NCBI GenBank assembly: GCA_947473305.1
Contig: CANJCB010000018.1
Span: 1-64,000, forward strand
DNA length: 64,000 nucleotides
Source: Rhodospirillales bacterium
GTDB taxonomy: Bacteria; Pseudomonadota; Alphaproteobacteria; ATCC43930; CGMCC-115725
Reading direction: 5' to 3'
The notes beneath the pieces are model-generated. The model was not told the origin of the DNA, did no database searches, and worked only from the letters and a program-made list of their open reading frames with translations. Shown piece after piece: positions 1,498-29,333 of this stretch. Made by a program: the position numbers and the translations under genes. Each line of letters begins with the position of its first letter. Positions within the stretch are counted from its first letter, which is position 1.

Positions 1498-1523
1498 GGA
1501 ACCAGCCCGCCCCTATCGCCGTT
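1498..1523 (+). promoter_or_regulatory. EcfG-type general stress promoter (GGAAC-N17-CGTT)
   Basis: GGAAC at 1498-1502 and CGTT at 1520-1523 are separated by 17 bases, an exact match to the EcfG consensus. It lies 75 bases before the ATG of the Thr-rich exported protein at 1598, correctly oriented and in non-coding DNA. Promoter activity is inferred. Confidence 0.6.
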
Positions 1524-13913: not shown

Positions 13914-13938
13914 AACGGCCAATTCCCTAGGAGGTTCC
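13914..13938 (-). promoter_or_regulatory. EcfG-type general stress promoter (GGAAC-N16-CGTT, minus strand)
   Basis: Read on the minus strand, GGAAC (13938-13934) and CGTT (13917-13914) are 16 bases apart, an exact consensus match, just upstream of the 81-residue gene starting at 13892. Function inferred from sequence alone. Confidence 0.6.
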
Positions 13939-26790: not shown

Positions 26791-26820
26791 AGAAGCCCCG
26801 CCGTTGAGGGCGGGGCTTCT
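26791..26820 (-). terminator. Perfect 12-bp hairpin, terminator of the 96-aa gene
   Basis: AGAAGCCCCGCC (26791-26802) pairs perfectly with GGCGGGGCTTCT (26809-26820) around GTTGAG. It lies 24 bases after the stop of the minus-strand gene at 26844, with a short T-rich stretch (TCTTTGTCTC) after it on that strand. Confidence 0.75.
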
Positions 26821-26843: not shown

Positions 26844-27134
26844 CTAGCGGCGTTCCCAATATCGGTTGTCGTCGCGCCAGCCCCAACCGTTGACTTCGTC
26901 GTGGCGACGGTCGACGTGATACTGGGGATTTTGTTGGCGGAAGCGGTCTTGCTCCTGGCGGTCCTGCCACCCATGCCACTGCCTATTCCGGTCCCAATAT
27001 CCATCGCTGTAGCTGAAGGCCACGGTGGGGCCGACGGCAACCGGTCCACCGTTGGACGGAACCGCCACGCAAGCTCCGAGCGCGCCGGTAGCGAGAGTCA
27101 GCGCGACGAGCGCCCCCTTGAATCCACTTTTCAT
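26844..27134 (-). CDS. Exported aromatic-rich protein, single-repeat relative of its neighbour (96 aa)
   Basis: A signal peptide ends in ATGALGAC, which could be a lipobox (Cys21). The mature region holds one copy of a unit of about 59 residues, beginning VAFSYSDGYWD and continuing WHGWQDRQEQDRFRQQ to DDNRYWERR. The same unit occurs twice in the next gene upstream. It is rich in Trp, Tyr, Asp and Arg and has no recognised enzymatic residues; a distant resemblance in style to small DUF2502-type periplasmic proteins is possible but unproven. GAAGGGAT precedes the ATG. An EcfG-like element lies 57 to 81 bases upstream. Confidence 0.7.
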   Translation of the reverse strand: MKSGFKGALVALTLATGALGACVAVPSNGGPVAVGPTVAFSYSDGYWDRNRQWHGWQDRQEQDRFRQQNPQYHVDRRHDEVNGWGWRDDNRYWERR

Positions 27135-27190
27135 TTTTCTGATCCCTTCGATGCGATATCGCCGTGGTGCGGGATTTATCGCTTAGGGGT

Positions 27191-27215
27191 AACTCCGAAG
27201 GCCGGGTAAGGTTCC
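27191..27215 (-). promoter_or_regulatory. EcfG-like promoter, one mismatch (minus strand)
   Basis: On the minus strand GGAAC (27215-27211) and AGTT (27194-27191) are 16 bases apart, upstream of the 96-residue gene and downstream of the previous gene's terminator. The -10 half has one mismatch to CGTT, the same AGTT seen at 751. Confidence 0.4.
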
Positions 27216-27227
27216 CCCGCATGAAAA

Positions 27228-27251
27228 AGCCCCACCGTTTCCGGTGGGGCT
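27228..27251 (-). terminator. Terminator of the repeat-protein gene
   Basis: AGCCCCACCG (27228-27237) pairs with CGGTGGGGCT (27242-27251) around TTTC. On the minus strand it is followed by TTTT, 23 bases after the stop of the 158-residue gene. Confidence 0.8.
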
Positions 27252-27273
27252 CCTGCACCTTAGACTTGGCGGT

Positions 27274-27750
27274 TCAGCGGCGATCCCACCACTTGTCGTC
27301 TTCCCGCACGCCGTCCCTGCGGTCGCGGGTCTGCGGGCGATCGAAATATTTATCCCTGTGTTCCGCGCTGAATTGGCGGGCAGCCTGCTGATTTTGCCAT
27401 TTGTGCCAGCGGCCCTCGTTGTCCCAGTAGCCATTGCTGTAGCCAAAGGCGATGCCGCCGCGATCCCACCACTTGTCATCCTCCCGCAGGCCGTCCCGGC
27501 GGTCGCGAGTTTGCGGGCGATCGAAATAACGGTCCTGGTGCTCCGATTTGAACCGTTCGAAGGCTCGCCTGTTTTCCCAGCGATGCCAGCGCCGGCTGCT
27601 ATCCCAATAGCCGTCGGTATATCCGAACACGATCCCCGCCGGTCCGATCCCCACGGTGATGTTATCGACGGCCTGCGCCGGAATACTTGCGGTGAAGGTG
27701 CCGCAAGCGAGTGTCACGGCGACAAGCGCCGCTTTGGTTAGGCTTCTCAT
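27274..27750 (-). CDS. Exported protein with two tandem 60-residue repeats (158 aa)
   Basis: A Sec signal peptide (1-27, ending PAQA) is followed by two near-identical units, residues 39-97 and 99-157. Each runs GYxDGYWD or GYSNGYWD, WHRWEN or WHKWQN, a charged helix-like stretch, YFDRPQTRDRRDG and REDDKWWDR. The DNA copies are also very similar, pointing to recent duplication. The next gene downstream has one divergent copy. The unit is packed with Trp, Tyr, Arg and Asp and has no Cys. AAAGGAAC precedes the ATG. A surface, stress or metal-binding role is possible; none is shown. Confidence 0.72.
   Translation of the reverse strand: MRSLTKAALVAVTLACGTFTASIPAQAVDNITVGIGPAGIVFGYTDGYWDSSRRWHRWENRRAFERFKSEHQDRYFDRPQTRDRRDGLREDDKWWDRGGIAFGYSNGYWDNEGRWHKWQNQQAARQFSAEHRDKYFDRPQTRDRRDGVREDDKWWDRR
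27277..27636 (-). repeat. Two tandem 180-bp in-frame repeats
   Basis: Repeat 1 covers 27636-27457 and repeat 2 covers 27456-27277 within the exported repeat-protein gene. Each encodes 60 residues; the second half of each copy is almost identical at the DNA level, so unequal crossing-over could change copy number. Confidence 0.8.
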
Positions 27751-28240: not shown

Positions 28241-28265
28241 GGAACCAATCTCGAGGCCATGCGTT
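28241..28265 (+). promoter_or_regulatory. EcfG-type general stress promoter (GGAAC-N16-CGTT)
   Basis: GGAAC (28241-28245) and CGTT (28262-28265) are 16 bases apart, an exact consensus match, 33 bases before the lipoprotein start at 28299 and ideally placed to drive it. Confidence 0.65.
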
Positions 28266-28298: not shown

Positions 28299-28544
28299 AT
28301 GCGCGGCTTTCCAAACCCACTCGCGATCATCGCTTTAGCTTTGTTGTTAGTTGCCTGCGATGAACCGGCAGACCCGCAGGTCGTCGCGGGAGCCGGCAGT
28401 CAGCCATACCAGGCGTCCACGCGAGTCGGTGGAACGTCTAGCGCTCAACAGCCACATAGTGATCTTGCCGTGGTTTTTTTGCTGGCGGTGACCTCAGGCG
28501 CTTCGGCTGCGCGAACCCGTCGACGCGGCGAGCCGCCTCTATAG
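28299..28544 (+). CDS. Predicted small lipoprotein (81 aa)
   Basis: TTGAGGAGG lies just before the ATG at 28299. The signal peptide ends in the lipobox LLLVAC (Cys20), followed by Asp (DEPADP); an Asp after the lipidated Cys is the classical inner-membrane retention signal in enterobacteria, so inner-membrane location is possible. The rest is Gly/Ser/Gln-rich with a second hydrophobic patch (LAVVFLLAVTSGASA, about 55-70) that could be a membrane helix. An exact EcfG-type promoter lies directly upstream. Function unknown. Confidence 0.62.
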   Translation: MRGFPNPLAIIALALLLVACDEPADPQVVAGAGSQPYQASTRVGGTSSAQQPHSDLAVVFLLAVTSGASAARTRRRGEPPL

Positions 28545-28745: not shown

Positions 28746-29240
28746 TCAGTTCGCCGTCATGGTCAGGGTCAGGGTATCCGTATAGGTGTCGGCATTGAGC
28801 GCGCTATTGCCCGTGTAGGAGATGGCGAGTGTCTTCGCGACCCCGCCTGGAGCGGTGCGGGCGGCCGCGGTGGTGATCTGCGAGGAACTGGCGGCGAAGG
28901 TCTTCGCGGCGCCGTTATAAGTGACGGTATAGGCCAGAGTATCGGTGTTGCCCGACGGACCTTTGAAGAGGCCGGTGGTGGTACCGTTGGTCGTAACAAG
29001 GGTCACATTGTACCCGAGTTTATCATTGCAGGCCTCAGTAACCGTGGTGACCGAAGTCGCCGTGGCGGTGTTGGCCAGGTTAAGGCCTGTATTCCCCGAA
29101 GCGGAGACGGTGAGATTGCAGCTTTGGCCAATTGAGCCCGAGAGGTTGACGGATCCGGTGGTCGCTGCCTGCGCGCCTCCAGCAACCGCGACGACAGCGG
29201 CGGCGAAGTAGAGGGCGGAGCGAAGCGTGCGGTACATCAT
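28746..29240 (-). CDS. Exported pilin/spore-coat-U-like protein (164 aa)
   Basis: A signal peptide (about 1-25, ending AQA) precedes a Thr/Ala/Asn-rich beta domain with two cysteines (IGQSCNLTV and TEACNDKLGY), a spacing like that of chaperone-usher pilins or spore-coat-U-domain proteins. The C-terminus, YTDTLTLTMTAN, is a typical alternating final strand. AAGGGGA precedes the ATG at 29240. No chaperone or usher gene is nearby, so it is a solitary subunit. A perfect CRP-type palindrome lies 94 bases upstream in an AT-rich region, suggesting cAMP control. Family placement is tentative. Confidence 0.7.
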   Translation of the reverse strand: MMYRTLRSALYFAAAVVAVAGGAQAATTGSVNLSGSIGQSCNLTVSASGNTGLNLANTATATSVTTVTEACNDKLGYNVTLVTTNGTTTGLFKGPSGNTDTLAYTVTYNGAAKTFAASSSQITTAAARTAPGGVAKTLAISYTGNSALNADTYTDTLTLTMTAN

Positions 29241-29333
29241 GGTCCCCTTGATCACGGTTATTCATAAACTTGATTATTAATTTATCGCAAATTTTAGATA
29301 AATCAATATAGAAGGTTACCGAGAGATTAATTT

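Follow-up and report, generated by a model that had tools for sequence, protein, structure and literature searches.

Two adjacent genes, orfA and orfB, in the window (the whole 64,000-nucleotide stretch of Rhodospirillales DNA analyzed here) encode putative members of an undescribed family of small exported alphaproteobacterial proteins. The proteins are built from a 60-residue unit that is predicted to form a compact domain and that occurs in one to four copies per gene. The family probably belongs to the EcfG stress regulon, and we give about even chances to the broader reading that this undescribed exported family supplies the general stress response with effectors at the cell envelope.

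The orfA and orfB genes and their surroundings

The first-pass annotation of this DNA described exported proteins made of a duplicating unit. Both ORFs were confirmed on the minus strand where that annotation had placed them, with one unit in orfA and two in orfB (Table 1). Export is likewise credible from the translations, as both N termini are charged, hydrophobic, and of export type, and orfB passes the crude signal rule. The signal sequence of orfA closes with a lipobox-like LGAC, which makes the protein a possible lipoprotein. Mature orfB contains 7.6% W, 4.5% Y, 17.4% R, and 13.6% D, and the richness in Trp, Tyr, Arg, and Asp that had been claimed is evident in the units of both proteins. 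The hairpin after orfB and the perfect 12-bp terminator stem after orfA suggest that the two genes are separate transcripts; an orfA-orfB operon was considered and rejected because the terminator-like hairpin stands between them.

Table 1. Features in and around the orfA-orfB region of the window.
Feature	Position	Strand	Basis
orfB, exported-type protein, 158 aa, two tandem units	27274..27750	-	ORF; own-genome best match
orfB putative Sec signal peptide, aa 1-27, C-end PAQA	27670..27750	-	Translation; crude signal rule
orfB unit 1, 60 aa	27457..27636	-	Repeat comparison, alignment, AlphaFold
orfB unit 2, 60 aa	27277..27456	-	Repeat comparison, alignment, AlphaFold
Terminator-like hairpin 3' of orfB, 9-bp stem and T run	27224..27252	-	Read in sequence; not returned by terminator scanner
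orfA EcfG-type promoter-like site GGAAC-N16-AGTT, 81 bases 5' of ATG	27191..27215	-	One mismatch to GGAAC-N16-CGTT
orfA, exported-type protein, 96 aa, one unit, signal C-end LGAC	26844..27134	-	ORF
orfA unit, 60 residues	26847..27026	-	Alignment, sequence comparison
Intrinsic terminator 3' of orfA, 12-bp perfect stem and T-rich tail	26791..26820	-	Terminator scan
Perfect EcfG motif GGAAC-N16-CGTT, 58 bases 5' of small lipoprotein-like gene	28241..28265	+	Motif scan
Small lipoprotein-like gene, 81 aa, signal C-end VAC, outside the unit family	28299..28544	+	Sequence

The gene content of the window is that expected of an alphaproteobacterial chromosome: by sequence, clpX and lon lie to one side, and Pfam assigns an HU-type DNA-binding protein, a methyltransferase, and a nuoA-type gene. 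The small lipoprotein-like gene and its perfect EcfG motif are divergent to orfB, and a Pfam search up to E 0.01 gave nothing for its product. The same holds for an exported 169-aa protein encoded at 28749-29255 on the minus strand, which by eye resembles the pilus or spore-coat-U type.

Sequence and predicted fold of the unit

The unit had been said to match no recognized family, and the searches agree. A clear match to a characterized domain was looked for in Pfam, NCBIfam, and PDB sequences, and none was found. Neither orfA nor orfB matched a Pfam model up to E 10, their best NCBIfam hit had an E of 0.71 (10.4 bits versus a cut-off of 119 bits), and the best match of orfB to PDB sequences, at E 1.9, was not significant. 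Against the same PDB sequences, profile A2 gave no match and profile A4 reached E 0.97 at best, with a His-tag-like stretch of HexA. The limited literature search made returned nothing on the unit family.

Among 34 family members compared with Pfam, weak matches were obtained to Ala_racemase_C (three members, best E 0.0087, ∼15-28 residues), HTH_10 (one, E 2e-5), NPBW (one), and Lectin_L-type (one). The HTH_10 match, in L062, was rejected because it is a 15-residue fragment and no stretch passed alone when ten members were re-examined. The Ala_racemase_C and NPBW matches were also rejected as fragments, and all three are treated as composition effects. NCBIfam returned throspo3_MtsC in three members, BamM in three, and six weaker families. 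Matches to the thrombospondin type 3 repeat (TSP_3, PF02412) in 3 of the 34 members, with an E of 2.3e-6 in L053, read as real tails. Aspartate-rich tails of this kind, with calcium loops, occur in L009, L010, L012, and part of the members from f6, a family of the same class, and by pattern they were counted in 13 of 49 members. In L053 (1417-1953) the order is unit, tail, unit, tail, a duplication of the unit together with its tail.

The unit core has the consensus VAFGYxDGYWDxxHRWHxWRN...YR...Y, and unit positions Y15, D17, G18, Y19, D21, W26, H27, and W29 are invariant or nearly so. In AlphaFold models made with the family alignment, the unit has three short strands followed by a helix and a closing short strand, and it is thus predicted to be a compact small beta-beta-beta-alpha-beta domain. 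In the orfB model, the core of unit 1 has a pLDDT of 91-95 in three of four blocks (residues 41-80) and that of unit 2 has a pLDDT of 90-92 (residues 101-140); the mean is 72.8, with low values in the signal and linkers, and a lone unit gave 74.4. A Foldseek comparison of the unit model with the PDB returned nothing at E 0.001 or better (best E 3.8). The best VIA-align match of the unit, to the tick evasin 8skk_B (Z 3.0, 45 residues, rmsd 2.5), is unconvincing, and the two-unit model reached a Z of 2.9. These values neither establish a new fold nor argue against one.

Age of the duplication in orfB

The tandem repeat of orfB has a period of exactly 60 residues (180 bp), in keeping with the duplicating unit first described. 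Its two units are identical at 41/60 residues and 128/180 bases, the latter divided into 53/90 in the first half and 75/90 in the second. Since 2000 codon shuffles gave a mean of 55.9 identical bases and a maximum of 77, the repeat is not due to chance. At about 70% likeness, "near-identical," the wording of the first-pass annotation, overstates the resemblance. Its proposal of a recent tandem duplication stands in part. The duplication is real, and units 1 and 2 are each other's closest relatives in the unit tree (SH-aLRT 98; 71 columns, with most forks weak), which argues that it is lineage-specific. Its recency is not upheld, because NG86 dS between the units is about 1.7 (0.65 in the second half), and we read the event as lineage-specific and not young. 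The orfA unit, with 21-22/60 ungapped identities to the orfB units (37% to unit 2 in alignment A2), is evidently their divergent paralog, as the description of a divergent single unit in the neighboring gene had it. The window's genus had no other genome among those in the searches of relatives or of the order.

Distribution and copy number of the unit family

The window's own genome carries four unit-bearing genes with five units, namely orfA, orfB, one gene on contig C3, and one on contig C21. A scan of the genome_contigs collection with orfB alone gave no match, and a second scan, with profile A2, returned six loci. The unit was present in 4/43 genomes of the order-level search, own genome counted, and in 35/96 genomes of f6 (67 match rows). 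Samples of the class and the phylum gave at least 3/385 and at least 2/398 genomes, respectively, one of the latter matches being weak and with stops; both tallies are lower bounds, as the 15-16 best first-look candidates were scored per larger genome. The sole match of the phylum search outside the own genome (E 9.4e-4) has two internal stops and was not counted as a member. A tblastn search of plasmids and phages with orfB gave no match at E 0.1.

From the family searches, 50 distinct ORFs with 66 units were read. The number of units per gene varies from one to four between species: 40 of the 50 ORFs have a single unit and 10 have two or more, including three-unit ORFs (L049 and L062) and four-unit ORFs (L050 and L052). 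The latter two come from two genomes of one genus, and their units 1, 3, and 4 pair by position in the tree, which suggests that the array is older than the split of the genomes. In L062, units 2 and 3 pair with each other. Related gene pairs had dN of 0.08-0.21 versus dS of 0.50-1.16 in all six compared, and selection on the coding sequence of the unit family is evidently purifying. The crude signal rule was passed by 41 of 49 members, Cys is absent from the first unit onward in all 49, and net charge has a median of +3 (range -6 to +10). Two divergent relatives, L121 and L122, have a shortened motif (DGYTGTDGQFHAW), which suggests that the family reaches beyond the profile used.

The paralogs in the own genome adjoin genes that by eye are unrelated. 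A fixed gene neighborhood was therefore rejected, the stress-locus setting described below being seen in three genomes only. Two members, L010 and L012, come from metagenome-assembled genomes labeled (Candidatus) Marinimicrobia that also hold NepR and EcfG-like promoters. As these genomes contain NepR and PMC3892343 describes EcfG as restricted to Alphaproteobacteria, the labels may be wrong.

EcfG-type promoter-like sites upstream of family genes

The conventional general stress promoter motif, as given in PMC7083833, is GGAAC-N16-CGTT. According to that source, the -35 box is most often GGAAC or GCAAC, and common variants of the -10 box include TGTT, CATT, and GGTT; a similar motif is given in PMC6599016. 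We first noticed the motif in one family member, the own-genome paralog L004, which has GGAAC-N16-CGTT upstream. The 250 bases upstream of each family gene were scanned. The controls were genes no shorter than 200 codons, taken from the loci of the family genes and from the window; the family genes are related, thus their counts are non-independent. The 49-gene set contains six corrected starts and one, that of L062, which is one codon off, and the truncated L010 ORF was left out of the 50. At a spacing of 16-17, a site within one mismatch was found in 30/49 family genes versus 12/121 controls (Fisher p 1.8e-11), and a perfect site in 6/49 versus 3/121. With the spacing widened to 15-18, 33/47 family genes had sites versus a shuffle mean of 4.45 and a maximum of 12 (200 shuffles), in a set that includes seven genes whose start is not a start codon.

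The enrichment was also recovered with the box set fixed by publication, which scored 16/49 family genes versus 7/122 controls (p 1.3e-5). Shuffles of the family sequences gave a mean of 0.5 and a maximum of 4 (500 shuffles), reversed strings scored 2/49, and the opposite strand scored 6/49. In a dyad count made without a preset motif, GGAA-N18-GTTT and GAAC-N17-GTTT ranked first, in 10/48 sequences; across 20 shuffles, no dyad occurred in more than 6 sequences. Fourteen held-out family genes, which include the most divergent members and one (L129, 19 bits) lacking a proper start, gave 4/14 within one mismatch (shuffle mean 0.72, maximum 4, 1000 shuffles) and 3/14 with the published boxes (shuffle mean 0.14, maximum 3, 1000 shuffles). 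The enrichment of EcfG-like sites thus persists in held-out genes at half the first-set rate. For the family as a whole, the EcfG promoter is a statistical enrichment and not a property of every gene.

Within the own genome the picture is mixed. The AGTT -10 variant upstream of orfA recurs in five f6 genes. For orfB, no site within one mismatch was found in the 250 bases upstream, where the best have two mismatches, and neither gene scores with the published box set. In L002, the gene from this genome lacks a site at N16-17 and shows one with a single mismatch at N18 only. Membership in the EcfG stress regulon could go either way for orfA and is somewhat doubtful for orfB. The genome holds 49 perfect motifs versus 107 for the reversed pattern, so that single perfect sites prove little. 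Further perfect GGAAC-N16/17-CGTT sites in the window lie at 13914-13938 (minus strand) and 1498-1523 (plus strand).

NepR and the phyR-nepR-ecfG locus in carrier genomes

NepR (PF18557) scored over the cut-off in 33/43 carrier genomes, the window's own included, and was not found in the remaining 10, which include G007, G016, and G022, all three of the further carriers in the window's own family. The NepR of the own genome, on contig C53 with an ECF sigma gene adjoining, is barely above the cut-off (27.3 versus 25.7 bits), and divergent copies may therefore be missed.

In three genomes from two genera, the phyR-nepR-ecfG region includes a family gene at a distance of 0.1-3 kb from nepR. Two of these genomes, G873 and G865, are related to each other, and in both the end of a four-unit gene is under 0.1 kb from a nepR paralog (29.9 and 25.8 bits). 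This second NepR-like gene (L111:4203-4481 and L112:4292-4489) adjoins the four-unit gene apart from the main cluster; the ecfG-like gene, nepR, and phyR lie about 8-12 kb from the four-unit gene with HWE-type kinases between. Also between the array gene and phyR-nepR-ecfG in G873 are genes for a YflT-domain stress protein and an AI-2E transporter. The third genome, G804, has phyR, nepR, ecfG, and a histidine kinase in a row, and a one-unit family gene with a perfect EcfG site at -92 lies ∼3.0 kb after nepR.

Discussion

Our proposal for the family is as follows. Under general stress, PhyR would free EcfG from NepR, the family proteins would be made, and they would be secreted to the periplasm or, in the case of orfA, possibly lipid-anchored. 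A conserved aromatic/His/Asp face would then bind an envelope polymer (peptidoglycan or polysaccharide) passively, tandem unit copies would add avidity, and the fused thrombospondin-3-like tail of some relatives would add calcium binding. That the proteins bind an envelope polymer is a guess, and a rather doubtful one. With more, though still less than even, confidence, we suggest that the undescribed beta-beta-beta-alpha-beta domain is a dedicated exported stress effector, its dose and avidity tuned by tandem units and paralogs, and that an array gene and a nepR paralog joined the phyR-nepR-ecfG locus in some genomes.

The link to EcfG could be artefactual, arising from common ancestry or from a search that began with a motif first seen in one member, the genes being constitutive or under another sigma factor. 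The lower held-out rate (4/14 versus 30/49), the lack of a site within one mismatch at orfB, and the 10/43 carriers in which NepR was not found speak for this explanation. It is nevertheless improbable in our view, as the preset-free dyad count recovers the motif, boxes fixed in a separate publication are still enriched, and nepR-adjacent family genes occur in two genera. A somewhat less probable explanation is that the proteins are metal-binding envelope proteins, in which the conserved Asp, His, and Tyr residues would hold Ca2+ or a transition metal and buffer or sense it, the stress regulon being incidental. The TSP_3 matches and tail patterns in relatives and the near-invariance of the eight core positions from Y15 to W29 are consistent with such a role. 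Against it, orfA and orfB have no such tail, the unit matches no metal-binding family, the conserved D-G sits at a predicted tight turn, and the aromatic residues may make up the core.

A secreted adhesion or biofilm-matrix protein, in which tandem sugar-binding units would set the strength of adhesion by their number, would account for the one to four tandem copies, the aromatic-rich and exported character, and the sporadic distribution. Single-unit members are the majority, however (40/50 ORFs), and neither a surface anchor nor a secretion partner was noticed beside the genes read, and we regard this reading as unlikely. Finally, small size, export, and abundance of Trp and Arg would fit a secreted antibacterial peptide or toxin, but the modest net charge, the predicted fold, which is not that of an amphipathic peptide, the lack of an immunity gene seen beside orfA and orfB in the window, and the scattering of as many as four paralogous genes over one genome make this very improbable. 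An exported stress effector is the reading we prefer. Alphaproteobacterial general stress regulons contain many exported proteins of undefined function, and this modular domain would be a concrete candidate effector among them, with the varying number of units offering a natural series of avidity variants.

Three known systems come closest to the family. The WXXGXW/YXWGXW repeat, RcnB, and BA14K families are small, exported, and rich in Trp, Tyr, His, and Arg, as is the unit family, yet orfA and orfB match no Pfam model, theirs included, up to E 10. The thrombospondin type 3 repeat is matched by the tails of some relatives, whereas the unit, orfA, and orfB give no match to it over the same range. 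With respect to the EcfG/PhyR/NepR regulon, orfB differs in having no clear site, the regulation of the family is putative, and no described member of the regulon known to us contains this unit. The family nevertheless resembles that regulon in its GGAAC/GCAAC-N16/17-CGTT promoter-like sites and, in some genomes, in having nepR, ecfG, phyR, an HWE kinase, and a YflT-domain protein as neighbors, and published EcfG regulons (PMC6599016) list small secreted and hypothetical proteins.
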